64,000 nucleotides of DNA, taken from Aminobacterium sp. MB27-C1. GTDB taxonomy: Bacteria; Synergistota; Synergistia; Synergistales; Aminobacteriaceae. A model generated the notes under the pieces. The model saw only the letters and a list, made by a program, of their open reading frames with translations, was not told the origin of the DNA and did not search any database. Location of the stretch: NCBI RefSeq assembly GCF_030908405.1, contig NZ_CP133089.1, forward strand, positions 682,001 to 746,000, written 5' to 3'. Made by a program: the position numbers and the translations under genes. Below are positions 1-47,755 of the stretch, one piece after another. Within the stretch, counting starts at the first letter, position 1. Each line of letters begins with the position of its first letter.

Positions 1-107
1 AGATAACAGTCTATCCGTATAACGTTACGGAACTTGAAAACGTTGCTTCTATCCGGTGGGCGCTGGGATATCAAGCAGTTGAAACAGTTACAGTTTATCC
101 ACTTTAG
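1..107 (+). CDS. C-terminal end of a phage structural protein (partial)
   Basis: An open frame enters from the left edge (first full codon at base 3) and stops with TAG at 105-107. Its last residues read ...SIRWALGYQAVETVTVYPL. It ends 10 bases before the tail-fibre start, and its stop lies inside the fibre gene's ribosome binding site, as expected in a tightly packed phage late operon. In many prophages the gene before the collar fibre encodes a baseplate or tail-tip protein, so that role is an inference. Too little is visible to name a family. Confidence 0.55.
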   Translation, partial: ITVYPYNVTELENVASIRWALGYQAVETVTVYPL

Positions 108-117
108 GAGGTGTGAT

Positions 118-1581
118 ATGGCTGAAAATTTTTATACTATTTTAACTAATGTGGGGAAAGCAAAACTTGCCAACGCCCAGGCGTTGGGAACGAAAGTGGA
201 GTTTTCTTCCATAGCTGTTGGAGATGGGGCTGGAAACTACTACGAACCTGCCGAATCGCAAGCAGCTCTTAAAAATGAGGTTTGGCGTGGGCCGATAAAT
301 CAGATAAAAACGGATGAGGCAAATCCGAATTGGATTGTTGTTGAAGTGGTGATTCCTACCACGACGGGAAGCTTTACAGTTCGGGAAGCTGGAATTATTG
401 ATTCTGAGGGAGACCTGATAGCTCTGGGCAAATACCCGGCTACATACAAGCCAGCTCTGGCTGAGGGATCTGGAAAAGATCTTTATATCCGGATGATTTT
501 AGAGGTGTCGAACGCGTCTGCAATTACGTTGAAGATTGACCCTGCTGTTGTGCTGTCAACACGTGGATATGTCGATGAGAGCATTGCAGAGCATAACACA
601 GACCCCTTGGCGCATGGGAATCTGCCTTATCAGAAAACCTCGCAAAAAGATCAACCGGGTGGGTATGTTGGGTTAGATGCAGAGAGAAAAATAAATAAAG
701 ATAGGTTGCCTGACGGTACTGGCATTCCAGTTGGTTTTATCGGCATTTTCTTGGCTGAAACACCGCCTGCTGGGTGGCTTGAGTGTAATGGTTCTTTAGT
801 CAGTAGAGAAACATATCCGGAATTATGGGCATATGCTCAAAGTTCTGGAAACATTCTAGCGGAAGATACAACGGCAAATGAAGGACACTTCACAGTGGGG
901 AATGGCCTTACCACTTTCAGGTTACCTAACCCACAAGGAACGTTTTTCAGGGTACTCGATAAAACCCGCGGAGTTGACCCCGATTCTGGCAGAGTTGTTG
1001 GTAGTGAGCAGATGGATGCTTTTAAAAGTCATACGCATTTATTAGGGACCACGACAGAAACTCTTGGGAACGCGGTTTATGTACTAAGAACACAAATGGG
1101 AAGCTCCTTATTATCTTCTGAGAGTGGAATTACAAGTACTGGTGATTCTGAAACCCGCCCACGCAACACTGCTATTCTCTGTTGCATTAAGGCTTTTGAC
1201 GGAGCGACCAACCAAGGGCTAATAGATATTACAGCTTTAGCAAATGAACTAAACAATAAAGTTGATAAGGTAGATATCAAAGCTCCGGGAGATGCTCCAA
1301 TGTATGTTTGTCGTGCGTGGGTAAATTTTGATGCCTCATCAGGAACTCCCGTCATAAAAAACAGCGCGAACGTTTCTAGCATTGTGAAAATAGATGTTGG
1401 GAAATTTACAATAAATTTTCAAACACCAATGTCAACTGGAACCCCTTCTGTTAGTGCTATTTGTCGGTTTCTTGGTTCTGCTCTTATATTATCCACAGAA
1501 AATAAAGTTGATATATTTACAACAAATTACAATGCTGTTCCCGTCGATGTTGAAAATAATTGTGTAGCTGTATTTTGCTAG
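118..1581 (+). CDS. Prophage tail-collar fibre protein
   Basis: This 487-residue protein is a phage tail fibre, expected to sit at the tail tip and contact the host surface. Residues 1-170 match the DUF3751-type collar-fibre N-terminus (FYTILTNVGKAKLA, VGDGAG, a beta-rich stretch, then VREAGIID). Residues about 210-360 carry a phage tail-collar domain, with the typical GFIGIFLAETPPAGWLECNG opening and a RPRNTAILCCIKA end. The C-terminus is beta-rich and probably forms the variable tip. The ATG at 118 follows AGGAGGTGTGAT, a clear ribosome binding site. A longer frame opens upstream but lacks such a site and would overlap the preceding gene. The two small genes that follow are coupled to it. 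Confidence 0.9.
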   Translation: MAENFYTILTNVGKAKLANAQALGTKVEFSSIAVGDGAGNYYEPAESQAALKNEVWRGPINQIKTDEANPNWIVVEVVIPTTTGSFTVREAGIIDSEGDLIALGKYPATYKPALAEGSGKDLYIRMILEVSNASAITLKIDPAVVLSTRGYVDESIAEHNTDPLAHGNLPYQKTSQKDQPGGYVGLDAERKINKDRLPDGTGIPVGFIGIFLAETPPAGWLECNGSLVSRETYPELWAYAQSSGNILAEDTTANEGHFTVGNGLTTFRLPNPQGTFFRVLDKTRGVDPDSGRVVGSEQMDAFKSHTHLLGTTTETLGNAVYVLRTQMGSSLLSSESGITSTGDSETRPRNTAILCCIKAFDGATNQGLIDITALANELNNKVDKVDIKAPGDAPMYVCRAWVNFDASSGTPVIKNSANVSSIVKIDVGKFTINFQTPMSTGTPSVSAICRFLGSALILSTENKVDIFTTNYNAVPVDVENNCVAVFC

Positions 1582-1592
1582 GAGGTTTTAAC

Positions 1593-1790
1593 ATGCAAGT
1601 AATTTTATTTCCTATAGATGAAAAAGTTGCCGTAATGACACCTGTCGGAGATTCTCTCACAACGGCAAAAAAAGATGTACCGGCAGGAGTTCCTTTTATT
1701 ATCATAGATTCAACTGAATTACCTACTGCACCTCAAGAAACATGGGAAGTTGATTTTTCAAATCCCGATGGTTATGGGGGTGAGGCGTAG
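1593..1790 (+). CDS. Small prophage protein after the tail fibre
   Basis: This 65-residue protein (MQVILFPIDEKVAVMTPVGD...) starts at an ATG preceded by AGGAGGTTTTAAC, 11 bases after the fibre stop. I do not recognise a named family. It has no membrane segment or signal peptide. Its position between the fibre and a fibre-assembly-like gene, and its overlap with the next gene (stop TAG and start GTG share one base), suggest a fibre accessory or small virion protein. That role rests on position alone. Confidence 0.75.
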   Translation: MQVILFPIDEKVAVMTPVGDSLTTAKKDVPAGVPFIIIDSTELPTAPQETWEVDFSNPDGYGGEA

Positions 1791-2167
1791 TGGTCAGGAT
1801 AACCGTAAATACAGCAAAATTATTAACTTTAAAAATAACTGAAAAAAAAGAGGAAATAAAACAGGCATGGCTGAATGAGATAGAAAAAGTCGGTATGCCT
1901 ATAGAAGGCCACAATTTTAATGTTGATTTTGGAGTAGAAGATGCTCTTATTTGGCAGGAGGGCGTTCAATATGTGGCTCCAGAAGTAACTGAAGTAGAGG
2001 TAAGAGCTATAGATAACACATTTTATTCTTTACCTAGAAATGTTTATGAATCTATACCTGTTTTACAGAAAGCATATTATGCTCAAATGCTGCAGAAAAA
2101 ATGGGAACTTCAAAAGCAAGCTGATAATGCTGCAACATTAGAAGAGCTAGAACAAATCAACTGGTAA
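1790..2167 (+). CDS. Tail-fibre assembly-like prophage protein
   Basis: This 125-residue protein starts at GTG 1790, overlapping the previous stop by one base (TAGTG), so translation is probably coupled. The C-terminal half is helical and charged (VLQKAYYAQMLQKKWELQKQADNAATLEELEQI). The middle contains a short beta region (FNVDFGVEDALIWQEGVQYV). This plan, a beta N-terminal half with a helical tail directly after the fibre gene, resembles DUF4376-type or tail-fibre assembly proteins of other phages. The resemblance is weak at sequence level and the call depends mainly on position. Confidence 0.65.
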   Translation: MVRITVNTAKLLTLKITEKKEEIKQAWLNEIEKVGMPIEGHNFNVDFGVEDALIWQEGVQYVAPEVTEVEVRAIDNTFYSLPRNVYESIPVLQKAYYAQMLQKKWELQKQADNAATLEELEQINW

Positions 2168-2191
2168 AAGAACAAGCTAAATTAAACACTC

Positions 2192-2222
2192 GAGAGGTTG
2201 CCTACTCGGCAGCCTCTTTCTT
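2192..2222 (+). terminator. Rho-independent terminator after the fibre genes
   Basis: A hairpin with arms AGAGGTTGCC (2193-2202) and GGCAGCCTCT (2208-2217), one G-U pair and a 5-base loop, is followed by TTCTTT. It separates the tail-fibre cluster from the lysis genes. Confidence 0.7.
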
Positions 2223-2245
2223 TATGGAGAGGAGGGATGTATCAC

Positions 2246-2623
2246 ATGTTTTCAGAGCACTTTAGCAGATCTGAACTTGCATGCCGTTGTGGGTGTGATA
2301 GGTGCGATATCAAACCGGAACTTTTGAATCTTTTAGAAAAGATCCGCTCTCTGATGGGAACGCCAATCTTCATCAATTCCGGCTACCGCTGCCCTACGCA
2401 TAACAAAAAAGTGGGGGGGGTTCCAAATAGCTGGCATATGCAAGGCATAGCCGCAGATATTCGCCAAACAAAATGTTCTAACGATATTTTTCATTCAAAG
2501 GTTCTTCAGGCATATGAAGAGGGAAAACTTCCAGAGTTGGGAGGTTTGGGATTTTATAACGGAAGAATTCACGTAGATACACATAAATCTAGAGACGGAC
2601 ATTTACGTCAATGGAGAGGGTAA
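2246..2623 (+). CDS. Prophage M15-type peptidoglycan peptidase (endolysin)
   Basis: This 125-residue protein is a member of the M15 (M15_3) D-Ala-D-Ala carboxypeptidase-like family used by many phages as lysins. Metal-ligand motifs are visible: SGYRCPTHN with SWH (His64) and AADI (Asp71) in the middle, and a C-terminal IHVDTH. A cysteine-rich patch (CRCGCDRC, residues 13-20) sits near the N-terminus. The ATG at 2246 is chosen because GGAGAGGAGGG ends 9 bases upstream; an ATG at 2237 would abut the ribosome binding site. No signal peptide is present, so export would depend on the holins encoded next. Confidence 0.88.
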   Translation: MFSEHFSRSELACRCGCDRCDIKPELLNLLEKIRSLMGTPIFINSGYRCPTHNKKVGGVPNSWHMQGIAADIRQTKCSNDIFHSKVLQAYEEGKLPELGGLGFYNGRIHVDTHKSRDGHLRQWRG

Positions 2624-2624
2624 C

Positions 2625-2873
2625 ATGACAGGAGACGAAAATAAAATTCTTCTTGAAATTAGGGATCGTACAACCCGAATAGAACAACGTTTAGAAGATC
2701 GTGATAGGCAATGTGTTCTTCATGCAAAGGCCATAGCAGCTTTAGACGAACGTATTGATCACATAGAACGTCAGCTTACGGGATTGAGATCATGGATTGC
2801 TTCTGCAGGTCTCATTGGTGGAATCTTTGGCTGGGTAGCTCACACTGTATTGCCTACTATGACAGGGAGGTAG
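2625..2873 (+). CDS. Holin-like small membrane protein (XhlA-like plan)
   Basis: This 82-residue protein begins one base after the lysin stop. Residues 1-55 form a charged coiled coil (heptads in RTTRIEQRLEDRDRQ and ALDERIDHIERQL). Residues about 56-78 form one transmembrane helix. A coiled coil followed by a single membrane helix next to a lysin is the plan of XhlA/hemolysin-type phage lysis proteins. The assignment rests on architecture and neighbourhood. Confidence 0.7.
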   Translation: MTGDENKILLEIRDRTTRIEQRLEDRDRQCVLHAKAIAALDERIDHIERQLTGLRSWIASAGLIGGIFGWVAHTVLPTMTGR

Positions 2874-2876
2874 AAG

Positions 2877-3368
2877 ATGAATATTCTTGAAGTAGCACCC
2901 GTTATAGGACAATTAATAGATAAAGTTGTTCCCAACCCCAATCAGGCAAATGAACTAAAAATAGAACTAGCCAAACTCGACATAAAGAGAGATATAGCCA
3001 AACTTGATGTTCAGAAAGCTTGGTTATCTAACAAAAGTCCGTACGTGGCGGGAGCAATTCCGACAATTTTGTGGATGGTTAGTTTCGTTATCTTATTCAA
3101 CCACGTAGTGGCTCCTTTATTATCGTGGGGATTTCAAGCTACAGTCCCTGCCTTGGAACTACCTGGATATTACGTAGATATGGCTTCTACAATTGTGATT
3201 GGGTTATTCGTGAAAAAAGCATGGGATAACACAGATGTAAAAATTGGGGGATTCCATTCTCCCGTAAAATCAGAAGTAGAAGAGAGAGGTAGAGAGAGTC
3301 CTGATTATTACAAGAAGAGGTATGAGGAACTAGTAAGAGAACATCAACAAAAGGAGGCATCTACATGA
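2877..3368 (+). CDS. Phage holin, 3TM-type
   Basis: This 163-residue protein has an amphipathic N-terminus containing a repeated KLDI/KLDV pattern, two clear hydrophobic segments (about 58-80 and 98-113) and a charged C-terminal tail (SPDYYKKRYEELVREHQQKEAST). It resembles the 3TM holin family of tailed phages and gene-transfer agents (sequence around SPYVAGAIPTILWMVSF). Holins make the inner-membrane hole that releases the lysin. Spacing to the upstream holin-like gene is 3 bases. Its stop overlaps the next start (ATGA). Confidence 0.75.
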   Translation: MNILEVAPVIGQLIDKVVPNPNQANELKIELAKLDIKRDIAKLDVQKAWLSNKSPYVAGAIPTILWMVSFVILFNHVVAPLLSWGFQATVPALELPGYYVDMASTIVIGLFVKKAWDNTDVKIGGFHSPVKSEVEERGRESPDYYKKRYEELVREHQQKEAST

Positions 3369-5500: not shown

Positions 5501-6472
5501 CTAAAAAAAATAAGAAAATATAAAAAGTAGCTTATTATGATTGCTAAAAGCCGTAACTGTTCCCTTTTGTGGCGCTATTAATCGTGGAGCGGGGATTCCT
5601 TCTAATCCAATAACAGTTTGTGACGGTTTTTCTCCATCTATAGAAAGCACAACCATGTCGTGGTCTGGGTGCTGAGTGCGTTTTGTTGATCGAGCTGCTA
5701 TAGCACTTTCGACTTCGTATAATACCCACGAGGGTGCTCTTTTTACATTCGCAAATCCGATGTAATCAAGGTTGCTTTTGCTGTTGTCGTAGCTGTATCG
5801 TCCTTTGCCGAGGGCTAATAAGGGGAAGGAACACCCAGTAGGCGTGTCAGTGTTGTAGTCTCCGAGTATGAAAACGGGACCTTTCAGTGTCGATACAAGT
5901 TTGTTGATCCCATCGATTTGGGCGTTGCGTTTAGCCTCGTTATATCGTTTGGCCTGATCTTGGTCTTTTTTCCCTCTGGTACTCTGGCTTTTGAGGTGCA
6001 CGTTGACCAGGGTAAATTGGCGGTTTTTCTCTTTGTCTAGGAAGGTAGCTACGAGATTGGGGCGGTCATTTAGTTTGTAGCTTTTCCCCTCAAATCGGAA
6101 AGAGGCATTGGCTCCATAAGCGAAGGGGCCGTCTAGAAGTTTTAAGTTTTCGCTATTCCAGAGAAAGTAAAGATCTTGTCTTCCGCCTGTGTCGTTTCCT
6201 GCATATTTCCATTTTGGCAAGAATTTAGTAACGAAATATCTCATTGCGGCGTTTCCCTTGATTTCCTGGAGGGCTAAAACATCAGCGCCAGAAAAGGTGA
6301 TGGTCTTGGCTAGGTTGGCGCAATCAGAGGGGGAGTAGGCCTTTTTCCCCGAGACGTCGAAATACTCGATATTCATGGTTCCAATGGAGAGTGCTAATGC
6401 CTGGCTGGCGATGGTTAAGAAAATGGCGGTCAGAAGGCTGGCAAAAATAGAACGTTTTCGATTTCGAATCAT
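5501..6472 (-). CDS. Secreted endonuclease/exonuclease/phosphatase-family protein
   Basis: This 323-residue protein has an N-terminal signal peptide (about 1-27, ending SQALA) and an EEP-fold catalytic domain (DNase I-like). Motifs in order are TMNIEYF, LALQEIKG (metal-binding Glu), LVNVHLKS (His), LGDYNTDTP (Asp-x-Asn), LDYIGF and HPDHDMVVL (catalytic His). Family members hydrolyse phosphodiesters in DNA or phospholipid head groups with a divalent metal; here the enzyme would act in the periplasm or outside. ATG 6472 is preferred over an upstream TTG because GAGGAG lies 7 bases before it. It follows the usher-like gene on the same strand with an 86-base gap, so co-transcription is possible. 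Confidence 0.88.
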   Translation of the reverse strand: MIRNRKRSIFASLLTAIFLTIASQALALSIGTMNIEYFDVSGKKAYSPSDCANLAKTITFSGADVLALQEIKGNAAMRYFVTKFLPKWKYAGNDTGGRQDLYFLWNSENLKLLDGPFAYGANASFRFEGKSYKLNDRPNLVATFLDKEKNRQFTLVNVHLKSQSTRGKKDQDQAKRYNEAKRNAQIDGINKLVSTLKGPVFILGDYNTDTPTGCSFPLLALGKGRYSYDNSKSNLDYIGFANVKRAPSWVLYEVESAIAARSTKRTQHPDHDMVVLSIDGEKPSQTVIGLEGIPAPRLIAPQKGTVTAFSNHNKLLFIFSYFF

Positions 6473-6558
6473 GGTCAAACTCCTCGCGGCTTTTTCGATT
6501 ATGTCTATACGTTTTGTCTATATCAGTCTTGCACAAAACGATTAATCCGCAAGGGAAT

Positions 6559-9492
6559 TTATGACTGGTTTCGTATAATCCCTTCTTCCAATATTTCGAT
6601 CTGTCTCTTTTTAGGTGCGACTTTTATTGTGATGTTTCTTTTCTCGCCGGGCGCTAGTGTTATATGTTCTTCGGGGTTTTGAATGTAGTGGTAAGCAGGT
6701 ACGTCGTAGTCGTAGACTTTGAAGTTCCATGCTCCGGGACGTATGTTCAAGAAAGAGAATTTTCCTTCGCTGTCTGTCATCATTCTGATGGTTTCATCGT
6801 TTTTTGAAAGCTCAACCAGAATTCCTTCCAATTTTGCTGGAACCCGCGCCGCGCCGTTGTCAGGGTTTCCTACCGTTACGGCTTCATCCCTGATTGTATG
6901 TGACGGTGGTGTCTCCTCTTTAAGAAGAACGATCTCTCCGCTGAGTGTAGCAGCGTTGACAATTGTGAGCTCAACGGAGGTTGTTTGGCCTGCTTGTACG
7001 TGCACTTTCATTGGGAGTTTTTCCAGCGCGGTTTTTTCGAGTCCGATGGAGGAGCGATCTATGTCGAGAAAGTACGTGCCAGGAGGTGCCGAAAACGTAA
7101 ACTTTCCAGAAGCGTCTGTGGCAACTTTGCTGCCGTTTAGGGTGATAATGGCGTTGGGAAGAGCTTTTTTAGTTTCGTCGGGAGCGGAATAAGTGTTTAG
7201 TTGTGCCGATGCCGCAGATGTTTGAGCTGCCGCCAATGCGGAAACATCCCCGACACGTTCCCATACTGATCCAGAGAGGATTCCTAGAGATTTTTTCTTG
7301 CTCACAGAGATACCGATAGGAACGGTGTATGAAAGGGAGTAGTCAGTTTCAGTCTCGTTGCCATACTCCCAGTCGTAGCGGCGGATTTTGAAGGCCCAAC
7401 GGCTTTCGTCTGGCATGGCGAGGGATACTTCGAACTGATAGTTGTTGCTTTCGGGATCTTTCGAGTTGAAATTATATTTCGTGTACCATCCGCTGAGTAT
7501 AAGTTGCTCTGTTGCCTGCCACCGGAAAGAAAGTCCCCAGTTGTCTTGATCTGAAAGAAGCCTGCTTCCGCTGATCGCGCTATTATCGCCGAACCCTCCG
7601 TAAAGGGTGAACAAGAGCTTGCTTGAGGGTATGTACGATATGTAGAAACTGTAGTTCCATGGCGAACTGCTTTCATCGGTGAGTAGATCGTGTTGGTCAG
7701 CGTAGCGCGCCTCGACTCGGTAGTTGAATTTTTCGGTGCTTCTTCCGAGACTGAAGCGGTAGGCCTTTTCTTTTGTGTCATATTCCGAGGGGAAGAGTCG
7801 GTCTTTTCTGCTGAAGTTATCGTAAGCAAGTTGAGCATACCAGCCATTAGAGAGGCTGTGATTGATTCCTGCCTGAAAGAGCGTCTCTTTTGCCGAAATG
7901 TCTCCCTTATCGAGTCGTTTGTCTAGATTGGTTTCATAGGTGCTGTATGCAAGGAAACCCCGCGTACGGTTTGCTACGAGGCTTGATTTTTGGCCGAATA
8001 GAGGAAAGCTCACCGACGTGGCCATATAATCGCTATCATTGTAATATCCGTAGAAATCAGGCTCAGCGTGAGTTTTGACAAAGGAGTAGCGCGCTGTTCC
8101 CGCAAGGCCTGAAAGATTCACCCTATAAGCGTCATCCTCGACTTTTCCCGCACCATTTTCTTCACTTCTTTCTCCTCTCGCATATTCAAGGCTGAGCCTC
8201 GTATTCTTGGCAGGCACGAAGGTTCCTTCAATGCTATAAATATCATCTGTTGTTTTGGAACCCCTCTTTTCATGCCTATCCCACTCTTTCTGCAAATAGT
8301 TGAGCTTCCATTGGGCCTGGGGGGAAAAGGCTCCCTTTATGTACACTCCGCCCTCTTCCCAGTCAGGAGTGGTGAAACGGTTTTTCACATAGTAGGTTCC
8401 AAGACCGTAAAAGCTGTTTTCGGGATGATAGAAGGCTTCTATTCCCCTTCCGTATCGCGAGTAAGACGTGAGGTGCGAGAGTCCGTAGCTTTGGTCGCCC
8501 AGTCTGAAATCGAGGTCGGGGTCAAAGTAGTTTATGTAATATTCGTCTCTCTCTCCGTAAAGTCCCTTCTCATGCGTGTCAGGGCCGCGTAGTGAAAAGT
8601 CAATCCAGCGTCTGCCTCCCTCTTCAAGGGTTCCCTTACCTTCCAGTTCGATGTCGAAACCATCGGAGTCTTTTGTATCTCTTCTCCCCATAGATTTCAG
8701 GGTTAAACTAGCCGGAATGCGGTGGTAGAGGTCGATTTTCGCGTGTTGAGATACGATTCCTGTCGTTACGGAAAGAACCGATCTGATAGAGGAATCCTCT
8801 TTGCTCACTGCTTCAATGAAGACGGTGTGGTTCAGACTTTTGGGTATTTGGGAGGGGGTTTTCACTGAAATGGCGATGACGGTATTTCCTCCAGGTTCAA
8901 GAACAATTTCGTGTGTAGAGAGAGTTAAGGGGTAGTCATTCGAACTTCTGGCAGAGATCAGCATTGTGAGAGCAGTGTTTCCCTTATTGGCGATTCTTGC
9001 TGTTATTTCGTAGGATTCGCCGCCTACAATCATGTCTGGCGCACTTTCAGAAAAAATGTGTATTCCATCTACTGAAAGAACAGATATGCTTATGGAAACG
9101 GCGTCTGAGATGGCGTAGTCTCGTTGGGATCGCACCGAGTACGTTACGGTATAATCCTTGGCGCTCGATGTGGTCGGAATTTGGAAAGCCAGCATTCTCA
9201 CCGTTTGCTGTTTAGCGCCCAGAATAAAAACGTCGGGGGGAGTGATTTCAAGCCAGCCTTCCGGCAAGGAGAGGGCTTCTTCGAAGGTTTCTTCACTATC
9301 GGTTGTATTTTCAACTATAAAACTGGCGCTAACTATTTCTCCGGGGTTAGCATCAAGTTGTGGGGGAACCATGAGGCGGATATGTACACCATATCCCTTA
9401 CCCTGAGCGTACGCGCTTTTTGCCCAGAGAAGAAGAATCAATAAAATGAAAAGAAAGAATATTGATCTGTACCGTCTCTTTTTTCTCATCAT
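6559..9492 (-). CDS. Usher-like outer-membrane beta-barrel protein
   Basis: This large secreted protein of 977 residues has a signal peptide at 1-29 (ending SAYAQ). Residues 30-250 form two Ig-like/NEW3-like beta domains (PGEIVSASFIVENTTDSEE, then a second copy at GGESYEITARIANKGNTA). Residues 255-745 alternate aromatic-rich amphipathic strands typical of an outer-membrane beta barrel (YYINYFDPDLDFRLGDQSYG, WKLNYLQKEWDRH). Residues 780-960 hold two carboxypeptidase-regulatory-like beta-sandwich repeats (ITLNGSKVATDASGKFTFSAPPGTY and VELSKNDETIRMMTDSEGKFSFLNIRPGAW). The combination with a PapD-like chaperone and two secreted subunits suggests a secretion/assembly pore analogous to a fimbrial usher. 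The domain plan differs from FimD/PapC. Export function is inference. Confidence 0.75.
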   Translation of the reverse strand: MMRKKRRYRSIFFLFILLILLLWAKSAYAQGKGYGVHIRLMVPPQLDANPGEIVSASFIVENTTDSEETFEEALSLPEGWLEITPPDVFILGAKQQTVRMLAFQIPTTSSAKDYTVTYSVRSQRDYAISDAVSISISVLSVDGIHIFSESAPDMIVGGESYEITARIANKGNTALTMLISARSSNDYPLTLSTHEIVLEPGGNTVIAISVKTPSQIPKSLNHTVFIEAVSKEDSSIRSVLSVTTGIVSQHAKIDLYHRIPASLTLKSMGRRDTKDSDGFDIELEGKGTLEEGGRRWIDFSLRGPDTHEKGLYGERDEYYINYFDPDLDFRLGDQSYGLSHLTSYSRYGRGIEAFYHPENSFYGLGTYYVKNRFTTPDWEEGGVYIKGAFSPQAQWKLNYLQKEWDRHEKRGSKTTDDIYSIEGTFVPAKNTRLSLEYARGERSEENGAGKVEDDAYRVNLSGLAGTARYSFVKTHAEPDFYGYYNDSDYMATSVSFPLFGQKSSLVANRTRGFLAYSTYETNLDKRLDKGDISAKETLFQAGINHSLSNGWYAQLAYDNFSRKDRLFPSEYDTKEKAYRFSLGRSTEKFNYRVEARYADQHDLLTDESSSPWNYSFYISYIPSSKLLFTLYGGFGDNSAISGSRLLSDQDNWGLSFRWQATEQLILSGWYTKYNFNSKDPESNNYQFEVSLAMPDESRWAFKIRRYDWEYGNETETDYSLSYTVPIGISVSKKKSLGILSGSVWERVGDVSALAAAQTSAASAQLNTYSAPDETKKALPNAIITLNGSKVATDASGKFTFSAPPGTYFLDIDRSSIGLEKTALEKLPMKVHVQAGQTTSVELTIVNAATLSGEIVLLKEETPPSHTIRDEAVTVGNPDNGAARVPAKLEGILVELSKNDETIRMMTDSEGKFSFLNIRPGAWNFKVYDYDVPAYHYIQNPEEHITLAPGEKRNITIKVAPKKRQIEILEEGIIRNQS

Positions 9493-9556
9493 TTCTCTTC
9501 TTCAGCCTCCCCTTCACCATGGCTTTTCGCACCAAGACTCAGGTTAGCGCTCAGGA

Positions 9557-10375
9557 TCACTTAACATCTAATATGTATCTGGCACCGAAAACTTTTTCAT
9601 TTTCTCCGCTATCTGCTATAACGAGAGCGTTGTATTTTCCCGAATTCAATTTTCCAAGATCTATAACATAACGGGCGGAGCAGCCCGGGTATATGCGGAA
9701 CTTTTTCCCTTCGTATCGTTTCATTGCGTTCCCACCTGAATCGGCTACATCAACATAAAGCTGAGGAACTAGCCATTGTTCGCCTACATTTTCTACATCT
9801 ATGGTTAGGAAGGTCTTGTGGGCTTGAACTTTGAGGGCTTTGTTTGAGAACTGGAGAGCACGGGTTCCTGTATTTTCTATATGTGTGATCATCTGAACGG
9901 CATGCCTAAACACAGCCTGAACTCCGATAGTCGCTTTGTCCTTTTTAGGATTCGGAGGTTTCAAAGCATCTTGAGGAATGGGTTCCACCATAATGACGCT
10001 CCAGTATGTTCCACGAAGGTCAGATGTCTCTGGAACCGCTATCTCGTAAAAAATTGAGGTTTCTTCGCCAGGAGCTACGGTTACTTGGTTAGGCGTAAAT
10101 TTGATCCATTTTGCGTTAGATCGCGGCATGCTTCCCGGAGATCCGAAATTGTTCTTGCCGTCTGCAGAAAACATGTAATCTGTTTGATAGATACGAACTG
10201 TTTCTGCTTCTTTGCCATTATTTGCAATGACAATATTCCCAGATGTTTGTCCACCTAGCGGAAGGGTTTTATTGACAGTCATTCCATCTGGTAGTTGTAT
10301 GGCGTATCCCTTATCAGAAAAATATAGGCACAATAATAAAAACAAACAGAAAGACACGAATAATATTTTTTTCAT
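9557..10375 (-). CDS. PapD-like periplasmic chaperone
   Basis: This 272-residue protein has a signal peptide at 1-25 (ending KGYA). The first beta domain has the PapD-type layout, with strands at GGQTSGNIVIANNGKEAETVRIYQ, a W-x-K-F-x-P motif (WIKFTPNQVTVAPGEETSIFYEIAVP) and the proline-glycine turn usual before the last strands. A second beta domain follows (about 140-265). Such chaperones donate a beta strand to unfolded pilin subunits in the periplasm and deliver them to the outer-membrane pore. The start overlaps the stop of the upstream subunit gene by 4 bases, which implies coupled translation. It could alternatively be a DUF916-like surface adaptor; neighbours favour the chaperone role. 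Confidence 0.75.
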   Translation of the reverse strand: MKKILFVSFCLFLLLCLYFSDKGYAIQLPDGMTVNKTLPLGGQTSGNIVIANNGKEAETVRIYQTDYMFSADGKNNFGSPGSMPRSNAKWIKFTPNQVTVAPGEETSIFYEIAVPETSDLRGTYWSVIMVEPIPQDALKPPNPKKDKATIGVQAVFRHAVQMITHIENTGTRALQFSNKALKVQAHKTFLTIDVENVGEQWLVPQLYVDVADSGGNAMKRYEGKKFRIYPGCSARYVIDLGKLNSGKYNALVIADSGENEKVFGARYILDVK

Positions 10376-10863
10376 GATTGATCCACCACCGTAAAAGTTA
10401 TAGGGGCGCTGTACGTTCCTTGGGGCGCCGATATAGACAGTTCAGATATTTTGTATTGTATAGAAATATTTGTTCTGTCGCCGTTTCCACTAAAGAAAAG
10501 AACATCAGATTCCCCGACAGCTATGTATAAAGTTCCCCCACGGATTGATCCGGCTCCGCTTCCATTTCCTGTTCGCTTAACGTAAAGAGTAGCACCACTT
10601 GCCCACGATGAAGCGCTCTTTCGTATTAAAACATCCCATGCGCCACAAGGGCATTCGGTGCCTGCAATGCTTATTATTGTTGCATCTACAGTGCTTTCGA
10701 AACTATCGGCTAGATTGCTTCCGGCACCACCTCTGAGATGGGAAGAATTAATAACTAAATTTGTCCAACCACCAGTTGCATAAATATCGATTTCAATGGC
10801 ATAGAGGGGCGATTGTAAAGAAACTATGCATAATAAGACAATTAAAATGCATCTTTTTATCAC
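10372..10863 (-). CDS. Secreted minor subunit of the surface structure
   Basis: This 163-residue protein has a signal peptide at 1-22 (ending PLYA). The mature part is a predicted beta sandwich rich in Gly/Ser/Thr, with one CPCG cysteine pair that may form a disulphide. The C-terminus ends APQGTYSAPITFTVVDQ, the Gly-x-Tyr...x-hydrophobic pattern seen in the last strand of chaperone-dependent pilin subunits (spore-coat-U-like families). It overlaps the chaperone gene by 4 bases. I infer a tip or minor subunit; no specific family hit can be claimed. Confidence 0.65.
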   Translation of the reverse strand: MIKRCILIVLLCIVSLQSPLYAIEIDIYATGGWTNLVINSSHLRGGAGSNLADSFESTVDATIISIAGTECPCGAWDVLIRKSASSWASGATLYVKRTGNGSGAGSIRGGTLYIAVGESDVLFFSGNGDRTNISIQYKISELSISAPQGTYSAPITFTVVDQS

Positions 10864-10893
10864 AGCAAGACACCTCGTTTCACTCCAAAGAGA

Positions 10894-10926
10894 CAGGGGG
10901 GGAGGGGGAGAGGAACCTCCCCCCTG
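10894..10926 (-). terminator. GC-rich hairpin between major-subunit gene and the rest of the operon
   Basis: Arms CAGGGGGGGAGG (10894-10905) and CCTCCCCCCTG (10916-10926) pair almost perfectly, with one extra G. On the minus strand the hairpin is followed by TCTCTTT, a weak T tract. It lies between the stop of the major subunit and the start of the minor subunit. Partial termination or 3'-end protection here would give more subunit than assembly machinery. Confidence 0.65.
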
Positions 10927-10955
10927 CCTTAGAACAACTTAGAAAAAATGAGGAT

Positions 10956-11459
10956 TTAGATTACGACATCCGTGAGAGTGAACGTAACTGTTTTCGTTGC
11001 TGTGCTTTCCATAACATCTGCAGTTGAATCTGCAGAAAAGATATAGGTTATTATTTTGCCACTTTCCGCTACATGTTCAATACTAGTTACTACGTCATTA
11101 TCAGTTGTCGCTAACTCTACTTGACCTGACGAAGTTCCTCCGGTGGGTGCTTCCAGCTCTACGTAAAGATCAGTTCCCATGGGCATAGCGGTGTCAATTT
11201 TAGCTGTAATTTTTTTGCCTTCATCGTTTGTTGTGATAGCGTATGTCGATGTGCCTTGAGCATAATCTGGCTCACTTCCAGCGGTTGCTGTGCTGATAAT
11301 GAGGGGGTCAGGATCTGCACCTAAGCTGATTTCATTTATTGCCTGCACCTGAAATGTTACTGTTTGAGTGGCAGTATTACTTGCCTGTGCCATAGCAGCC
11401 AATCCAAAAACTACAAGCGCTATTGCTAAAAAGAGTACCAACGCCTTTCGTGCCTTCAT
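10956..11459 (-). CDS. Secreted major subunit (pilin-like beta-sandwich protein)
   Basis: This 167-residue protein starts at ATG 11459, 7 bases after GGAGG. It has a signal peptide (about 1-26, ending MAQA) and then a Thr/Ala-rich beta protein with no cysteine. The N-terminal strand (TATQTVTFQVQAI) and the final strand (TKTVTFTLTDVVI) have the alternating hydrophobic pattern needed for donor-strand exchange. It is the first gene of the four-gene surface operon and is followed by a hairpin, so it is probably the most highly expressed. Identification as a fibre subunit is inference from context; WxL-like or DUF4402-like adhesive proteins are alternatives. Confidence 0.65.
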   Translation of the reverse strand: MKARKALVLFLAIALVVFGLAAMAQASNTATQTVTFQVQAINEISLGADPDPLIISTATAGSEPDYAQGTSTYAITTNDEGKKITAKIDTAMPMGTDLYVELEAPTGGTSSGQVELATTDNDVVTSIEHVAESGKIITYIFSADSTADVMESTATKTVTFTLTDVVI

Positions 11460-17304: not shown

Positions 17305-18651
17305 ATGAGTTGGGAAGGAAAACATATTCTTAAAGTGGGTACTAAAAAACAATTTGGAATATCTGATTCTGAATTGGATGAAGAAAAACTAAAAAGAGAT
17401 ATCGAATCTTGGCTTGCGGCTGTTTTCCAAAGTGAACATCTCTCTTTATTGTTAGGCAGTGGATTTACCACTGCGGTTGCAACTAAAGCTGGAGTAAAAG
17501 GAGCTGGCATGGACTGCGATTATGCGGAGTTTAGTCATGGTGAAGAGTTAAAATTAGCTGCAGAAAAAGTGGCAAAGGCTACAGGACGTGGTGAGCCAAA
17601 TATTGAAGATCAAATTCGTGTGGCAAATATATTAGCTCAGGGATTAGAAATTATGAGAAAAGATGAAGAAGCCATGGAGGTAAAAAAGGCGTTATTAGAA
17701 TTAATAAGAAAATTTATAAATAATATTTCGCGAAGTGAACAAAATATTAGAAAGGCTATTGAGCGAGAAGCTAACGAGGAAGAAAAATTACATCTGGAAA
17801 CAAATAGCGATGAGGAAAACGTAACATCGAAATCACTGGTCGTGCTTGTCTCATTTTTATTAAGTTTTGCAAGCAGAACTGCGACGCGAGAACGACTTAA
17901 TATTTTTACGACTAACTACGACCGACTTATTGAATACGGTGCTGATATGGCTGGTTTACATTTAATAGATAGATTTGTTGGAATCCTTGAACCTGTTTTT
18001 AGATCATCAAGACTTGATATAGATATGCATTATAATCCACCTGGAATAAGAGGTGAGCCTAGATACCTTGAAGGAGTAGTTCGGTTTACTAAACTTCATG
18101 GTTCATTAGATTGGATTTATAGGGATGGTTTTGTCAGAAAAATTGGTTTGCCATTTGGGTTTGAATATGACCACCCGGCATTTGAAAACAGATCTCATAC
18201 GCAGGTAATGATCTATCCAAATGCTGCAAAAGATAGAGAAACAGCTGAATATCCTTATGTTGAACTGTTTCGTGATTACGCAGCTGCCATATGTCGCCCC
18301 AATTCTTCGCTTGTAACTTACGGCTATGGTTTTGGTGATGATCATATAAATAGGAGCATAGCAGATATGCTTACAATCCCTTCGACCCATTTGGTCATTA
18401 TCTCACACGGAGATAAAAGTGGAAGAATATGTAATTTTTATAATAACGTTGGTCATGATGCGCAAATTTCGTTATTGATAGGGACACATTTAGGGGATAT
18501 ACAGCAACTTGTTAAGTACTATCTTCCCAAACCGGCAATTGATCCAATTACAATGCGTCAAGCTAGTTTGCTTAAAAATAGGGGATGGAGTTCCAATAAA
18601 GAAGATGAAGAAAAAATGAAAAATTTCCCCTATAAGGAGGATGTGTTGTAA
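17305..18651 (+). CDS. SIR2-domain protein of a SIR2-HerA defence module
   Basis: This 448-residue protein contains a SIR2-like NAD-binding domain (SIR2_2 type). Motifs are LLLGSGFT (GSG 51-53, nucleotide loop), IFTTNYDRLIE (Asn204, Asp206), KLHGSLDW (His265, the expected catalytic histidine) and YGYGFGDDHINRSIADM (about 340-356). In known anti-phage systems such domains hydrolyse NAD+ on infection and stop growth. An inserted helical, acidic segment (about 115-175) separates the first two motifs. GGGAGG lies 9 bases before ATG 17305. The stop overlaps the HerA start by one base, so the proteins are made together, as in described SIR2-HerA complexes. The DNA is AT-rich compared with sbcCD downstream. 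Confidence 0.85.
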   Translation: MSWEGKHILKVGTKKQFGISDSELDEEKLKRDIESWLAAVFQSEHLSLLLGSGFTTAVATKAGVKGAGMDCDYAEFSHGEELKLAAEKVAKATGRGEPNIEDQIRVANILAQGLEIMRKDEEAMEVKKALLELIRKFINNISRSEQNIRKAIEREANEEEKLHLETNSDEENVTSKSLVVLVSFLLSFASRTATRERLNIFTTNYDRLIEYGADMAGLHLIDRFVGILEPVFRSSRLDIDMHYNPPGIRGEPRYLEGVVRFTKLHGSLDWIYRDGFVRKIGLPFGFEYDHPAFENRSHTQVMIYPNAAKDRETAEYPYVELFRDYAAAICRPNSSLVTYGYGFGDDHINRSIADMLTIPSTHLVIISHGDKSGRICNFYNNVGHDAQISLLIGTHLGDIQQLVKYYLPKPAIDPITMRQASLLKNRGWSSNKEDEEKMKNFPYKEDVL

Positions 18652-20777
18652 TGACATCTCCTATATCTAATATATCAATGCGGACTGTTGGGACTGTAGA
18701 AAGTGTTTCTTCTGACGAAATTAAGGTCTTGTTGGATATAGATGCACCACGAAATATAGCTTTAAATACGGGTGTTCCCATTTCTTTCCCTAAAATAAAT
18801 AGTTTCCTTTTGTTGCCTAACGAGGTAGGTGCTGTTGTAGGTTCTGTTATTTGGGTTGGGGTAGAGCGTTCCGCATACCCTAAAAGGCAGGGGTTAAAAG
18901 ATTTTGGGCTTATTGATTTACCGTTCCCATTAAGAAAAATGATTTTAACCCCTATTGGAACTCTTACATCAAAGGAAGGGCAGTGGAAATTAGAAAGAGG
19001 GGTTCAAAGTTTCCCTTCAGTAGGAGATCCTGTTATTTTACCTACGCAGGAACAAAGTATTGCTATTGTTACAAATTATGAAAAAAATAGTAGGTTGAAA
19101 ATAGGAACGTGTCCTACTGCTCATAATGCTTTAATTCAAGTAGATCCAGATAAACTTTTTGGGAGGCATCTGGCAGTGTTAGGTAATACCGGCAGTGGAA
19201 AATCGTGTACTTTGGCTGTACTGATACGTTCCTCTGTAGAGGCGGCACAATCTAATTTAAAACAAGAGGAGTCTGATCCTAAAAGAGATGAACAAAAGAA
19301 TACTAACGCACGATTTATTATACTTGATCCTAATGGAGAGTATTCTAATTGCTTTCAAGATTTAGGTTCAGGATGTCGTGTCTTTAAAGTACCTCCTTTT
19401 GAATATAAAAGTGCGGAAGAATTTGTTTTACCAGCTTGGATGTGGAATAGTTCTGAATGGGCTGCAGTCGCACAAGCTGCACCTAAAGCTCAAAAGCCCT
19501 TGTTACAGACAGCCCTAAGAGATTTGCGTTCTGGATATTCTCAGGAGCTTAATCTTAGAACTAGGATACAGACACGGTGTAATTTGGTTCTGAAATGGTT
19601 GCTAGGGTTTGAAGGAAAAGGTGCTACAGGGTTCCCCGAGAATAAGGATTGTGGAACAATGTTACATGCATTCCAAGAAGATATTAATATATATAAAAGC
19701 GATTTGGCTGCAGGTGATGTATTAATTAAACCTATGTCGGATCTTGGAAAAGAGTTAGATAAAATTTATAAGGAGAACTTCATCGACAACAAAAAATATT
19801 ACGGAGACTTTTCTGATAGCTCGCTCTCTAAAATTATTAAATTGATTAAAGAAGTTCTTGCACAGTATCCCCAAAAAAAACAATATATTAGTGCTAATGA
19901 AGATATGCCGATTAGATTTGATGCGAGTAATTTGGCCAATTATTTAGAAGTATTGGCGAGTCAACAAAGTGGCAATTCCAGCCAGTATATTCCTATGATG
20001 GTCATGAGAATTAAAACGATGCTTTCTGATTCCAGAATGAAAGATGTTGTAAATCCGAATGATCCGCCATCTCTACAAGAATGGCTCGAAAAATATATAG
20101 GCTCAAATCAAGGGGAAAATGGTCCAGTCGCTGTTATTGATCTCTCATTAGTTCCTTATGAAATTTTACATCTCGTTATTGCAATTACTTCAAGGTTAAT
20201 TATTGAAGCCTTACAGCGATATAAAAAATTATATAAAGAAAATCTTCCAACGGTATTGGTTCTCGAAGAAGCCCACACATTTGTAGCAAAAAAAATGCCT
20301 CATGGTGATGAAATACCAACTCCTGCAGATATGTGTCGATGCATTTTTGAACGTATTGCACGGGAAGGACGTAAATTTGGTTTAGGATTGGTACTTTCTT
20401 CGCAAAGGCCATCAGAACTTTCTGAAACGGTTTTATCACAGTGTAATACCTTCTTATTACATAGAATTACAAATGACCGAGATCAAGAACTAGTTAGTCG
20501 ACTAGTTCCTGATACGACAAGAGGGTTATTAAAAGAGCTTCCAAGTTTACCAAAAAGACATTGTATTTTATTAGGCGTCACTTCAAAAATTCCTGTTTTA
20601 GTTGAAGTTAAGGATCTTAAAAAAGAGCAACAACCGGAATCTGAAGATCCTGATTTTTGGGATGTTTGGACTTTTCAAAAAGAAAGAAAAGTCGATTGGA
20701 GCAAAATCGCGAATATCTGGATTGGAACTTCTCCAGAAGATACAAGTGATTTCGCTTCACAGGAGGAAGCCCAATGA
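18651..20777 (+). CDS. HerA-type hexameric ATPase
   Basis: This 708-residue protein is a HerA/DUF87-family DNA translocase. The N-terminal beta-barrel (HAS-barrel-like, about 10-150) is followed by Walker A GNTGSGKS (178-185), FIILDPNGEYS, a helical insertion, Walker B VLVLEEAHTF (about 532-541) and a sensor/arginine region EGRKFGLGLVLSSQRPSELSETVLSQCNTFLLHRI. HerA rings act with a nuclease in archaeal end resection and with SIR2 or other effectors in bacterial defence. The start overlaps the SIR2 stop (TAATG) and the end overlaps the sbcD start by 4 bases (ATGA). It would form a ring bound by the SIR2 protein and could also serve SbcCD. Confidence 0.88.
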   Translation: MTSPISNISMRTVGTVESVSSDEIKVLLDIDAPRNIALNTGVPISFPKINSFLLLPNEVGAVVGSVIWVGVERSAYPKRQGLKDFGLIDLPFPLRKMILTPIGTLTSKEGQWKLERGVQSFPSVGDPVILPTQEQSIAIVTNYEKNSRLKIGTCPTAHNALIQVDPDKLFGRHLAVLGNTGSGKSCTLAVLIRSSVEAAQSNLKQEESDPKRDEQKNTNARFIILDPNGEYSNCFQDLGSGCRVFKVPPFEYKSAEEFVLPAWMWNSSEWAAVAQAAPKAQKPLLQTALRDLRSGYSQELNLRTRIQTRCNLVLKWLLGFEGKGATGFPENKDCGTMLHAFQEDINIYKSDLAAGDVLIKPMSDLGKELDKIYKENFIDNKKYYGDFSDSSLSKIIKLIKEVLAQYPQKKQYISANEDMPIRFDASNLANYLEVLASQQSGNSSQYIPMMVMRIKTMLSDSRMKDVVNPNDPPSLQEWLEKYIGSNQGENGPVAVIDLSLVPYEILHLVIAITSRLIIEALQRYKKLYKENLPTVLVLEEAHTFVAKKMPHGDEIPTPADMCRCIFERIAREGRKFGLGLVLSSQRPSELSETVLSQCNTFLLHRITNDRDQELVSRLVPDTTRGLLKELPSLPKRHCILLGVTSKIPVLVEVKDLKKEQQPESEDPDFWDVWTFQKERKVDWSKIANIWIGTSPEDTSDFASQEEAQ

Positions 20778-22015
20778 AGATTCTTCATACATCAGACTGG
20801 CACCTGGGACGCTCCCTTTACGGGCGCAAACGCTACGACGAGTTTTCCCAATTTCTAGGCTGGCTCGGCACAACTATCGAAGCCGAAAATGTCGACGCAC
20901 TGCTCGTCGCCGGAGATGTTTTTGACACGAGCACTCCCAGCAACCGCGCTCAGGAGCTTTACTACAACTTTCTCTGCACAGTCTCTCGTTCCTGTTGCCG
21001 GCACGTTGTCATTATTGCAGGAAACCACGATTCCCCCTCATTCCTGAACGCTCCGAAAGAGATTCTCAAAGCTCTGAACGTCCACGTTGTGGGTTCCATA
21101 ACAGATAACCCGGAAGACGAAATTATCGTGCTGAGAGATAGAAGCCAAAAGCCGGAAGCCATAGTCTGCGCGGTTCCATATCTTCGGGATAAAGATATTC
21201 GCGTTGTCGAGGCCGGCGAAACGATTAAAGATAAGAATGAGAAGCTCATCGAAGGTCTTACAACTCACTATGGAACCGTCTGTGACATTGCCGAGAAGAA
21301 GCGCGCCGAGTTTAAGAAAGATAGCGGAGTAGATATTCCAATTATCGCAATGGGGCACCTTTTCACGGTGGGAGGCAAAACGGTGGACGGGGACGGCGTC
21401 AGAGAGTTGTACGTCGGCTCACTGGCTCACGTGGCGGCCGACCGCTTCCCTTCGTCTATCGACTACCTGGCGTTGGGACACCTCCACGTTCCTCAGTGTG
21501 TGGGAAATACTGATCACATCCGTTACTGTGGCGCTCCCATCCCTATGGGCTACGGCGAGGCCCGTCAGAATAAAAAGGTGATTATTGTTGAATTCAACAG
21601 CACGACGCCAGACGTTCGCGACATTCAGGTTCCGTGCTTTCAGCATTTGGAACGCATCGTGGGTTCCCTTGATGAAATAGAGTCGAAAATTGAGGAACTC
21701 AAGGGGCAGGGCAGCTCCGCGTGGCTTGAGATCGAGTATACGGGCACAAGCGTTGTTGGAAACCTGCGAGAGGTTCTGGAAGAGGCAATCTCGGGCAGTT
21801 CCATGGAAATTAGGCGAATAAAAAACAGACAGATTATTGAAAATGCCACCCTTACTCTTGAGGAAAGCGAGACCCTCGACGATATGACAGTGAACGACAT
21901 TTTTGAACGCTGCCTTGACGACTACGGCGTTTCTCAGGAAGAGCGGGAAGAGCTTATCACGGCATATAACGAGATAGTCAGGTCTCTTTATGAAGACGAC
22001 GTTAACGCAGAATAG
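20774..22015 (+). CDS. sbcD: Nuclease SbcCD subunit D (Mre11-like)
   Basis: This 413-residue calcineurin-like phosphoesterase is the Mre11-type nuclease of the SbcCD complex. It degrades hairpins and protein-blocked DNA ends with manganese. Motifs are HTSDWHLGR (Asp8, His10), AGDVFD (Asp48), GNHD (Asn84, His85), IAMGHLF and LALGHLHVPQ, followed by the capping domain and a C-terminal SbcC-binding region. The length is normal. Base composition shifts sharply upward in G+C at this gene relative to herA, although they overlap by 4 bases, suggesting that the SIR2-herA pair was inserted precisely in front of a resident sbcDC operon. Confidence 0.95.
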   Translation: MKILHTSDWHLGRSLYGRKRYDEFSQFLGWLGTTIEAENVDALLVAGDVFDTSTPSNRAQELYYNFLCTVSRSCCRHVVIIAGNHDSPSFLNAPKEILKALNVHVVGSITDNPEDEIIVLRDRSQKPEAIVCAVPYLRDKDIRVVEAGETIKDKNEKLIEGLTTHYGTVCDIAEKKRAEFKKDSGVDIPIIAMGHLFTVGGKTVDGDGVRELYVGSLAHVAADRFPSSIDYLALGHLHVPQCVGNTDHIRYCGAPIPMGYGEARQNKKVIIVEFNSTTPDVRDIQVPCFQHLERIVGSLDEIESKIEELKGQGSSAWLEIEYTGTSVVGNLREVLEEAISGSSMEIRRIKNRQIIENATLTLEESETLDDMTVNDIFERCLDDYGVSQEEREELITAYNEIVRSLYEDDVNAE

Positions 22016-22026
22016 GGAGGCTGAAC

Positions 22027-25000: not shown

Positions 25001-25284
25001 CCTTTATTGTGAGCCTTAACCTGGCTCTCGGACTCTCGAAGATGGCGAGTCAGAATGTGAGAGTCGATTCGCTCTTTTTGGACGAAGGGTTTGGAACGCT
25101 AGATGAAGACGCCTTGGAAACCGCTCTCGAAACCTTAGCTGGCTTACAGCAGGAGGAGAAACTCATTGGTGTGATTTCGCACGTATCCGCGCTGCGAGAG
25201 AGGATCAGCACGCAGATTGAGGTGGAGCCGGTGTCGGGTGGGAAGAGCAGACTGACGGGCCCGGGGTGTTGTGAGGGCGCGTAG
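22027..25284 (+). CDS. sbcC: Nuclease SbcCD subunit C (Rad50-like ATPase)
   Basis: This 1085-residue SMC-like ATPase has an N-terminal Walker A (GPTGAGKSTILDAICLALYG, about 38-57), Q-loop region LLAQGSFDTFLKA, long coiled coils either side of a zinc hook (CPLCGATVHPYA, Cys541 and Cys544), the ABC signature LSGGETF and Walker B LFLDEGFGTLDED at the C-terminus. It dimerises with SbcD to form the ATP-dependent nuclease that opens DNA hairpins. Spacing to sbcD is 11 bases with GGGAGG inside. No terminator is obvious in the 43 bases before the next, convergent gene. Confidence 0.95.
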   Translation: MKILELRFKNLNSLYGEWRIDFTDPAYMTNGLFAITGPTGAGKSTILDAICLALYGATPRLGRITKSGNEIMSRQTAECFAEVVFESQAGRFRCFWEQHRAHGKTDGNLVDAHHEISEVKDDGPGKVIESKKSLVPGVIVDKIGMDFDRFTRSILLAQGSFDTFLKANPEQKSEILEQITGTEIYSEISRRVQKRHSREKDALGLLEAEASGIELLTPERECEIGHEIAEKREEEAALADQREKMERALSWLKDIEALHEEIASLSEESAKLTSEIEEFKPERERLDHAQKAAELDGEYARLAEVRKVQSDDRASLEKLEGELPGLEGSFKECEESLKKAEQQTEKAKDELNQEVPLIKNVRLLDQNLALKGEDVESCAKKCTGDAEAIEAKEKERSVTQEEHNRADEKLKAVQEYLEANCEDKGLVSGFTGIEQQLAHLGSEQKAIIQQETKAQQAQAQLADCCERLRECGRKNDVFKKQVEEAVKAHEEAQKELETLLAGRLLREYRAEKDALLREGDLLSKIAKLEDYRAQLEDGKPCPLCGATVHPYAEGNVPLPDGTQKKIDELTGFIEAAEALGEDVKEREAAEREAVSKLKELESDARLVTQEKERAEKDLSDLNETLQKMRDDYDRLKVTVSEKLHPLGVDLTSETDVSSLREALHERLEAWQIHVDEKEKIERERFQLEKTLGKLDGEIETQKKDLAEKKQALQSAQDGYTSAKTERQKLYGDKDPDKEEERMNQQIAKADEVEREARNQLNLAQQKLTATKASIESLSKKIGERASLLDELESAFHISLHAGGFGDEARFLQARLTSSERMALANRAKSLDNRQTELKAKEEDRKERLAAEIAKKVTDEGREELEPQFRECEENLKLLRDVIAGLKQQLVSNSQNKERMKEKQGAIEEQKKECNRWAKLHSLIGSADGKKYRNFAQGQTFKLMVSHANRQLAKMTDRYLLIQNEEQPLELDVIDNYQAGEVRSTKNLSGGETFIVSLNLALGLSKMASQNVRVDSLFLDEGFGTLDEDALETALETLAGLQQEEKLIGVISHVSALRERISTQIEVEPVSGGKSRLTGPGCCEGA

Positions 25285-44696: not shown

Positions 44697-44698
44697 TT

Positions 44699-44932
44699 AT
44701 GGCAAAAGGTAAAAACCAGCATGTTGTAAAGCATCCCAGTGGTTGGGCTGTTAAAGGTGAAGGAAATACTAAGGCAACCAAAGTAACTCGAACACAAGCA
44801 GAAGCTATTGAAGTTGCAGAAAATATTGCTAGAAATCAAAAATCGGACACTAAGATTCATGGTGAAAATGGAAAGATTCGTGCTGGTAATAGCTACGGAA
44901 ATGATCCTTGCCCACCAAAAGATAAAAAATGA
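44699..44932 (+). CDS. DUF2188-family small protein
   Basis: This 77-residue protein matches DUF2188 (NQHVVKHPSGWAVKGEGNTKATKVTRTQAEAIEVAENIARNQKSD, ending in a basic GKIRAGNSYGNDPCPPKDKK). The typical W-x-V...T...A pattern is clear. The function of the family is unknown. GGAGGTG lies just upstream of ATG 44699. It lies between hsdS and the patatin gene and leads the nested CBASS block, as small DUF2188 genes often do in defence islands. Confidence 0.85.
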   Translation: MAKGKNQHVVKHPSGWAVKGEGNTKATKVTRTQAEAIEVAENIARNQKSDTKIHGENGKIRAGNSYGNDPCPPKDKK

Positions 44933-44941
44933 GGATATAGC

Positions 44942-47073: not shown

Positions 47074-47076
47074 TAA

Positions 47077-47736: not shown

Positions 47737-47755
47737 GATAGAAGGAGACAGAAAA

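Follow-up and report, generated by a model that had tools for sequence, protein, structure and literature searches.

What is assembled by four adjoining genes that recall a chaperone–usher operon but carry none of its sequence families? The question is raised by a locus of Aminobacterium sp. MB27-C1 (Synergistota), an anaerobe from sewage sludge whose genome is a single contig of 2,427,830 bases (PMC11008193). The stretch analysed, referred to here as the window, comprises 64,000 nucleotides (positions 682,001 to 746,000 of NZ_CP133089.1), and the genes lie on its minus strand in the 5' to 3' order sub1, sub2, chaperone, and barrel protein. A previous reading, made from the sequence alone (the sequence-only reading), had described them as two subunits with signal peptides, a two-domain chaperone, and a 977-residue barrel protein, adjoining and in part overlapping. 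All four genes are located where that reading placed them, and each of the encoded proteins starts with a hydrophobic signal-like segment. The overlap is confined to sub2 and the chaperone gene, which share four bases; the remaining gene pairs do not overlap.

Judging from sequence profiles and structure models, this operon is probably a chaperone–usher-type machine for the assembly of surface fibres, belonging to a separate lineage and equipped with a chaperone of the WxLIP family. We infer protein fibres on the cell surface as its probable product, together with a donor-strand complex and a secretion pore. Chaperone-dependent assembly of subunits in a lineage distinct from FimD/PapC had already been proposed by the sequence-only reading, and the proposal is borne out by the lack of Usher, PapD, and fimbrial Pfam matches and by Foldseek searches that rank FimD and donor-strand chaperones near the top. 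Since the same gene order recurs in two phyla, and in a reduced form in a third, the arrangement is not due to chance. The system is likened to the chaperone–usher systems, yet not classed among them, because neither their sequence families nor an inserted plug were found.

The Chaperone

By sequence profile and predicted fold, the closest known relative of the chaperone is WxLIP (DUF916-DUF3324), and not PapD or FimC. Single chaperone sequences matched no named family above the cut-off, and a single-sequence search of the PDB was empty; among the 12 members scanned individually, none matched the PapD families of Pfam, and five matched the WxLIP family below Pfam's cut-off (best E 0.0017). The profile of the chaperone family, however, matches EfmWxLIP1 of Enterococcus faecium over both domains, with E-values of 3e-7 (12 members) and 3e-10 (27 members). 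In profile–profile comparisons with hhalign, the match to twelve plasmid WxLIPs reaches a probability of 96.6% over 267 columns, covering the full length, whereas that to eight pilus chaperones of E. coli K-12 reaches 85% and is limited to domain 1.

The AlphaFold2 model, with a predicted local distance difference test (pLDDT) of 87.6, exhibits two immunoglobulin (Ig)-like domains in the PapD arrangement. The first Foldseek match of this model is a WxLIP bound to WxL (9i25, E 2.4e-13), followed by CfaA (E 1e-9), CsuC (3e-9), YadV (8e-9), and then Caf1M, with modest template modelling scores (TM-scores) of 0.4–0.5 by query. Thus, the PapD-like chaperone of the sequence-only reading retains its two domains and its place among donor-strand chaperones, with WxLIP instead of PapD as its nearest relative.

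In the interior of the model, low confidence is found mainly at residues 131–160 (pLDDT 62–80), which form a loop between two strands and occupy the position of the F1-G1 loop and the donor strand in pilus chaperones. The alternation of the type I150/V152/A154/F156 within this region is kept across the chaperone family. In pilus chaperones, the subunit carboxylate is anchored by basic or tyrosine residues (PMC4654587); of these, R157, a basic residue close to where the G1 position ends, is present in 10 of the 12 chaperones, and the other anchor residues have no certain alignment. A C-terminal membrane helix, found in 11 of 12 WxLIPs, is held by none of the 27 chaperones, and the E. coli pilus chaperones likewise lack it.

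The Subunits and the Intergenic Hairpin

The sub1 protein has a signal peptide, an amphipathic strand at the N-terminus (TATQTVTFQV) with AINEISL next to it, and another strand at the C-terminus (KTVTFTLTD), and the copy in the window is entirely devoid of tryptophan. This N- and C-terminal pattern—an alternating strand, an AINEISL-type segment, and a TVTFTLTD-type end—is common to the 40 members of the family. Kinship between sub2 and sub1 is indicated by their profiles, with an hhalign probability of 94–95% when a fusion row is excluded; a match of 99.8% was rejected as an artefact of that single sub1–sub2 fusion row (L015) in the alignment. The fusion itself, a natural in-frame one from a metagenome-assembled genome (MAG) of Acetomicrobium (L015:6875-7996), is usable for modelling the contacts between subunits. 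The Pfam scan of sub1 and sub2 members revealed no fimbrial or pilin family, and no match of any kind for sub1; neither profile has a meaningful match among PDB chains. The fold of both subunits would be incomplete, and completed by a strand of the chaperone.

Given its position upstream of a hairpin, sub1 is the likely major fibre subunit. On the other hand, sub2 is the likely tip or initiating subunit, as it always accompanies the chaperone: its gene immediately precedes the chaperone gene in all loci of Synergistota and of the second phylum where the contig reaches. In the pap, fim, and CFA/I operons, a hairpin behind the major-subunit gene keeps the mRNA of the major subunit in excess, and by analogy the GC-rich hairpin in the gap between sub1 and sub2 may keep sub1 mRNA in excess here. 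The hairpin of the window has a z-score of -5.9 against mononucleotide shuffles, although the stricter dinucleotide shuffles give only -1.65 for a 101-nucleotide stretch of the gap. With mononucleotide shuffles, the gaps behind the upstream subunit gene reach -3.7 or lower in 12 of 21 cases, including both phyla and Deinococcus deserti, and longer stretches from seven other loci range from -2.9 to -4.8 with dinucleotide shuffles.

These data bear on a quite unlikely alternative, in which the chaperone would stay on its subunits and the barrel protein would display the whole complex or anchor it, resulting in a stable adhesive coat with neither strand exchange nor polymer. WxLIP, the nearest relative, does remain with WxL on the Gram-positive surface (PMC10599100), and the barrel protein could hold subunits with its additional Ig-like and transthyretin-like domains. 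However, a complex of this kind is at odds with the missing membrane helix in all 27 chaperones, with the failure of sub1 and sub2 to match WxL domains (hhalign probability of 9% or less), and with the many tandem subunit genes and the hairpin behind the first of them, which point to one subunit in excess.

The Barrel Protein

Regarding the domains that flank the barrel, the sequence-only reading was accurate, since two NEW3/Ig-like domains are found in the N-terminus and two carboxypeptidase-regulatory-like domains in the C-terminus, the latter in 12 of 12 members. The AlphaFold2 model of the protein is moderate to weak, with a pLDDT of 70.7 and a predicted TM-score (pTM) of 0.54. Between the flanking domains it predicts 27 strands of 7 or more residues, where an usher has a barrel of about 24 strands. 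FimD fills eight of the ten top Foldseek rows, with TM-scores of about 0.25–0.34, and TonB receptors come next. The motif GDQxYxxSxLTxxxxYGRG occurs, with substitutions, in 20 of 20 aligned barrel proteins and is similar to GDGYTQGDIFDGINFRG, located early in the FimD barrel; as hhalign on the window of the GD...RG motif alone is not significant, this likeness is a lead only. A single-sequence search of the PDB with the barrel protein gave no match. By hhalign, the profile of twenty barrels matches the ushers of E. coli K-12 with 32% (E 5e-4), compared to 0.6% or less for LptD, FhuA, and FepA.

Several points weigh against an usher-like role for this protein, and with it against the assembly of fibres by the operon. 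The model is weak, in both its pTM and its TM-scores to FimD, and the presence of TonB receptors in the same list makes the barrel ranking alone weak evidence. The Usher family (PF00577) is matched by none of the 12 barrel members, nor by the divergent homologues, so that the search against usher families leaves the hhalign result, which is suggestive and not significant. Structure prediction placed FimD first, albeit from a weak model; a plug domain inserted in the barrel, whose absence the sequence-only reading had named beforehand as contradicting it, was not seen, because strands of the barrel are at most 15 residues apart in this model of moderate confidence. As for the chaperone, its 85% to the Proteobacterial chaperones is not above the Ig background, since the NEW3/Ig-like domains of the operon's own barrel protein, used as a generic Ig control, reach 90% by hhalign. 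Finally, there is no report of fibres of this system.

Some of these results would suit a porin, or a receptor for polysaccharide or peptide, with the small Ig-like neighbours as accessory binding proteins, a role that appears very improbable. It agrees with weak matches of some members to Porin_4, BBP2, and OMP_b-brl, and with the position of the TonB receptors right after FimD. Nevertheless, FimD-type ushers rank above these receptors, no plug domain is seen in the barrel model, and the operon also encodes a two-Ig chaperone and several secreted beta subunits that are small and paralogous, partners with which receptors, to our knowledge, are not usually encoded.

It is also possible, though unlikely, that the mechanism is the proposed one and the lineage is not separate, the operon being a highly diverged archaic or alternative chaperone–usher system beyond sequence recognition. 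This would be consistent with CfaA and CsuC being among the best chaperone folds after WxLIP, with a weak match of a divergent barrel homologue from the second phylum to CooC_C of CS1-type ushers (E 0.06), and with the archaic systems reported in Deinococcus-Thermus and Cyanobacteria (PMC4654587). By contrast, PapD, Usher, and pilin Pfam matches are found in no member, WxLIP is clearly the nearer relative of the chaperone in sequence, and the inserted plug is missing. Moreover, the profile of the K-12 ushers reaches 47% to EcpC by the same method that gave 0.4% between an earlier, smaller barrel profile and the ushers, or 32% with the larger profile. A fibre assembly machine of a separate lineage is the reading that we prefer.

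Gene Order and Distribution

The chaperone is present in 12 of the 188 Synergistota genomes, with two copies in Aminobacterium sp. MB27-C1. The genes keep almost the same order throughout—one or several sub1 genes, then sub2, the chaperone, the barrel protein, and often one further sub1—with 11 complete loci in this phylum and two cut by contig ends. The sequence-only reading had restricted the system to this phylum, which was too narrow, as it also occurs in a second phylum and on Deinococcus plasmids. A search of genome contigs with the barrel led to CSMAG-labelled MAGs (L028 and L029), and L028 belongs to a phylum other than Synergistota, as it is not among the 188 Synergistota genomes searched. 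Chaperone matches were obtained in 35 of 291 genomes of the phylum of L028, nine of them at E-values below 1e-86. The complete order is seen in six loci of this phylum, others being truncated at contig ends, and in one locus sub1 is present as seven tandem genes. The barrel search of genome contigs returned nine loci and missed genomes of the second phylum, so its count says nothing of absence elsewhere.

In this second phylum, large PAS/histidine-kinase genes after the barrel gene and a LytTR-type response regulator before sub1 (L028:2877-3755, L028:8781-13081) are possible regulators of the operon. In addition, frames of ~560–640 amino acids that partly match the chaperone profile (in G438, G259, G193, and others) could represent a multi-domain relative.

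Plasmid 2 of D. deserti has the reduced order sub1–chaperone–barrel–sub1, and three other Deinococcus plasmids encode the chaperone close to a large protein that has NEW3-like and carboxypeptidase-regulatory-like domains. Sequence reveals the flanking domains alone in these distant loci, and not the barrel region; a tblastn search of plasmids with the barrel protein gave no match.

Proposed Mechanism

All four proteins are expected to be exported by Sec. In the periplasm, the chaperone would lend the strand at the G1 position of its first domain to sub1 or sub2, completing their fold, and the resulting chaperone–subunit complexes would bind to the barrel protein at its Ig-like domains in the periplasm. 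The chaperone strand would then be replaced by the N-terminal strand of the next subunit, and the growing fibre would exit through the barrel.

Origin and Genomic Neighbourhood

In the chaperone and barrel trees, the window copy clusters with full support with Acetomicrobium-type operons of another family, apart from the typical copies of its own genus. Its G+C content is 0.47 over the barrel gene vs. about 0.33–0.38 in the flanks, and the operon is located between phage-like genes and defence genes. It was likely acquired horizontally; an old duplication followed by loss is the alternative origin.

A secreted endonuclease/exonuclease-like gene (5501-6478) is found on the same strand about 80 bases downstream of the barrel gene; it was rejected as a part of the operon, since it is present in no related locus. 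Other neighbours, as judged by eye from their translations, include phage tail-fibre, tail assembly, M15 peptidase, and holin-like genes (34-3368). A pair of genes with strong PADLOC matches to SIR2 and HerA (17305-20777), probably involved in anti-phage defence, is directly followed by sbcD/sbcC-like genes (20774-25284), and the product of 14591-15526 matches the PADLOC candidate defence family PDC-S31 (E 1.6e-42). Further away, genes for a patatin-like phospholipase, a CD-NTase-like nucleotidyltransferase, and an E2-like protein stand in a row (44942-47736; translations likewise judged by eye), resembling CBASS (cyclic oligonucleotide-based antiphage signalling system), within a type I restriction-modification locus (41929-50950).

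Table 1. Features of the operon and their positions in the window (aa, amino acids).
Feature	Position	Strand	Remarks
sub1, putative major fibre subunit, 167 aa	10956-11459	minus	ATG preceded by GGAGG; mechanical open reading frame extends to 11501
GC-rich hairpin, sub1-sub2 gap	10893-10932	minus	may act as an attenuator or stabilise mRNA; follows the gene of the putative major subunit
sub2, second subunit family, 163 aa	10372-10863	minus	GTG start; ends FTVVD
Periplasmic chaperone, WxLIP superfamily, 272 aa, two Ig-like domains	9557-10375	minus	
Putative donor strand of the chaperone, G1 position, residues 146-158	9902-9940	minus	I150, V152, A154, F156 alternate; inferred
Outer-membrane barrel protein, putative usher equivalent, 977 aa	6559-9492	minus	
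Two NEW3/Ig-like domains, residues 36-245	8758-9387	minus	NPCBM_assoc/NEW3 and related Ig families; strands in model
Conserved motif GDQSYGLSHLTSYSRYGRG, residues 332-350	8443-8499	minus	resembles FimD GDGYTQGDIFDGINFRG; compared by eye with K-12 ushers
Beta-barrel region, residues 257-746	7255-8724	minus	27 strands of 7 or more residues in AlphaFold2 model
Two carboxypeptidase-regulatory-like (transthyretin-like) domains, residues 772-960	6613-7179	minus	CarboxypepD_reg E 5e-12

Implications

Chaperone–usher pili are classified by their ushers (PF00577), and surveys based on ushers would miss the present system because its barrel is unrecognised and its chaperone is WxLIP-like. No prior link between chaperone–usher systems and WxLIP/DUF916/WxL was found in the literature searched. 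If our reading is true, a fibre-assembly lineage would be added in phyla whose means of adhesion are poorly known, and the lending of a strand by WxLIP to WxL would have a testable reason, namely descent from a pilus chaperone or from a shared ancestor. Existing descriptions may understate both the variety and the spread of this type of pilus assembly. More tentatively, and with less than even confidence, we propose that donor-strand fibre assembly has a separate branch in the diderm Terrabacteria (in Synergistota, Deinococcota, and one or more further phyla), and that the WxL/WxLIP complexes of Bacillota arose from the same ancestral chaperone, with the outer-membrane part lost together with the outer membrane.

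Comparison with Known Systems

The classical pili (FimC-FimD and PapD-PapC) share with the present system the logic of the operon, in which adjoining genes for a chaperone and a barrel protein are accompanied by several subunit genes, as well as the hairpin behind the major-subunit gene of pap and fim. FimD is also the top Foldseek match of the barrel, and the GD...RG motif lies early in the barrel. Contrary to these pili, there is no family-level match, the N-terminal domains of the barrel protein are NEW3/Ig-like, an inserted plug is missing, and there is no clear counterpart of the two conserved basic anchor residues found in classical chaperones.

The alternative (alpha) pathway, exemplified by CFA/I (colonisation factor antigen I; CfaA-CfaB-CfaC-CfaE) and ECP (E. 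coli common pilus), and the archaic pathway, exemplified by Csu (CsuC-CsuD), similarly combine in one operon an anchorless two-Ig chaperone, several small subunits with N-terminal amphipathic strands, and a large barrel with N- and C-terminal domains; after WxLIP, the folds closest to the present chaperone are those of the pilus chaperones CfaA and CsuC. Unlike these pathways, the chaperone, barrel, and subunits described here have no family-level sequence match, the barrel has no inserted plug, and NEW3/Ig N-terminal domains replace the N-terminal domain of the usher.

Finally, the WxLIP/WxL cluster of Bacillota (DUF916-DUF3324; WxLIP_PGBD, PF06030) differs in that the present system has neither a C-terminal helix in its chaperone, nor a WxL motif or detectable WxL homology in its subunits, and has an outer-membrane barrel. 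However, in both cases a two-Ig protein is encoded beside small secreted beta proteins, and the DUF916-DUF3324 tandem is matched by the chaperone over its full length, in profile and in fold. In an AlphaFold2 prediction (PMC10599100), WxL receives a hairpin strand from WxLIP in parallel orientation, and donor-strand complementation has this same geometry.

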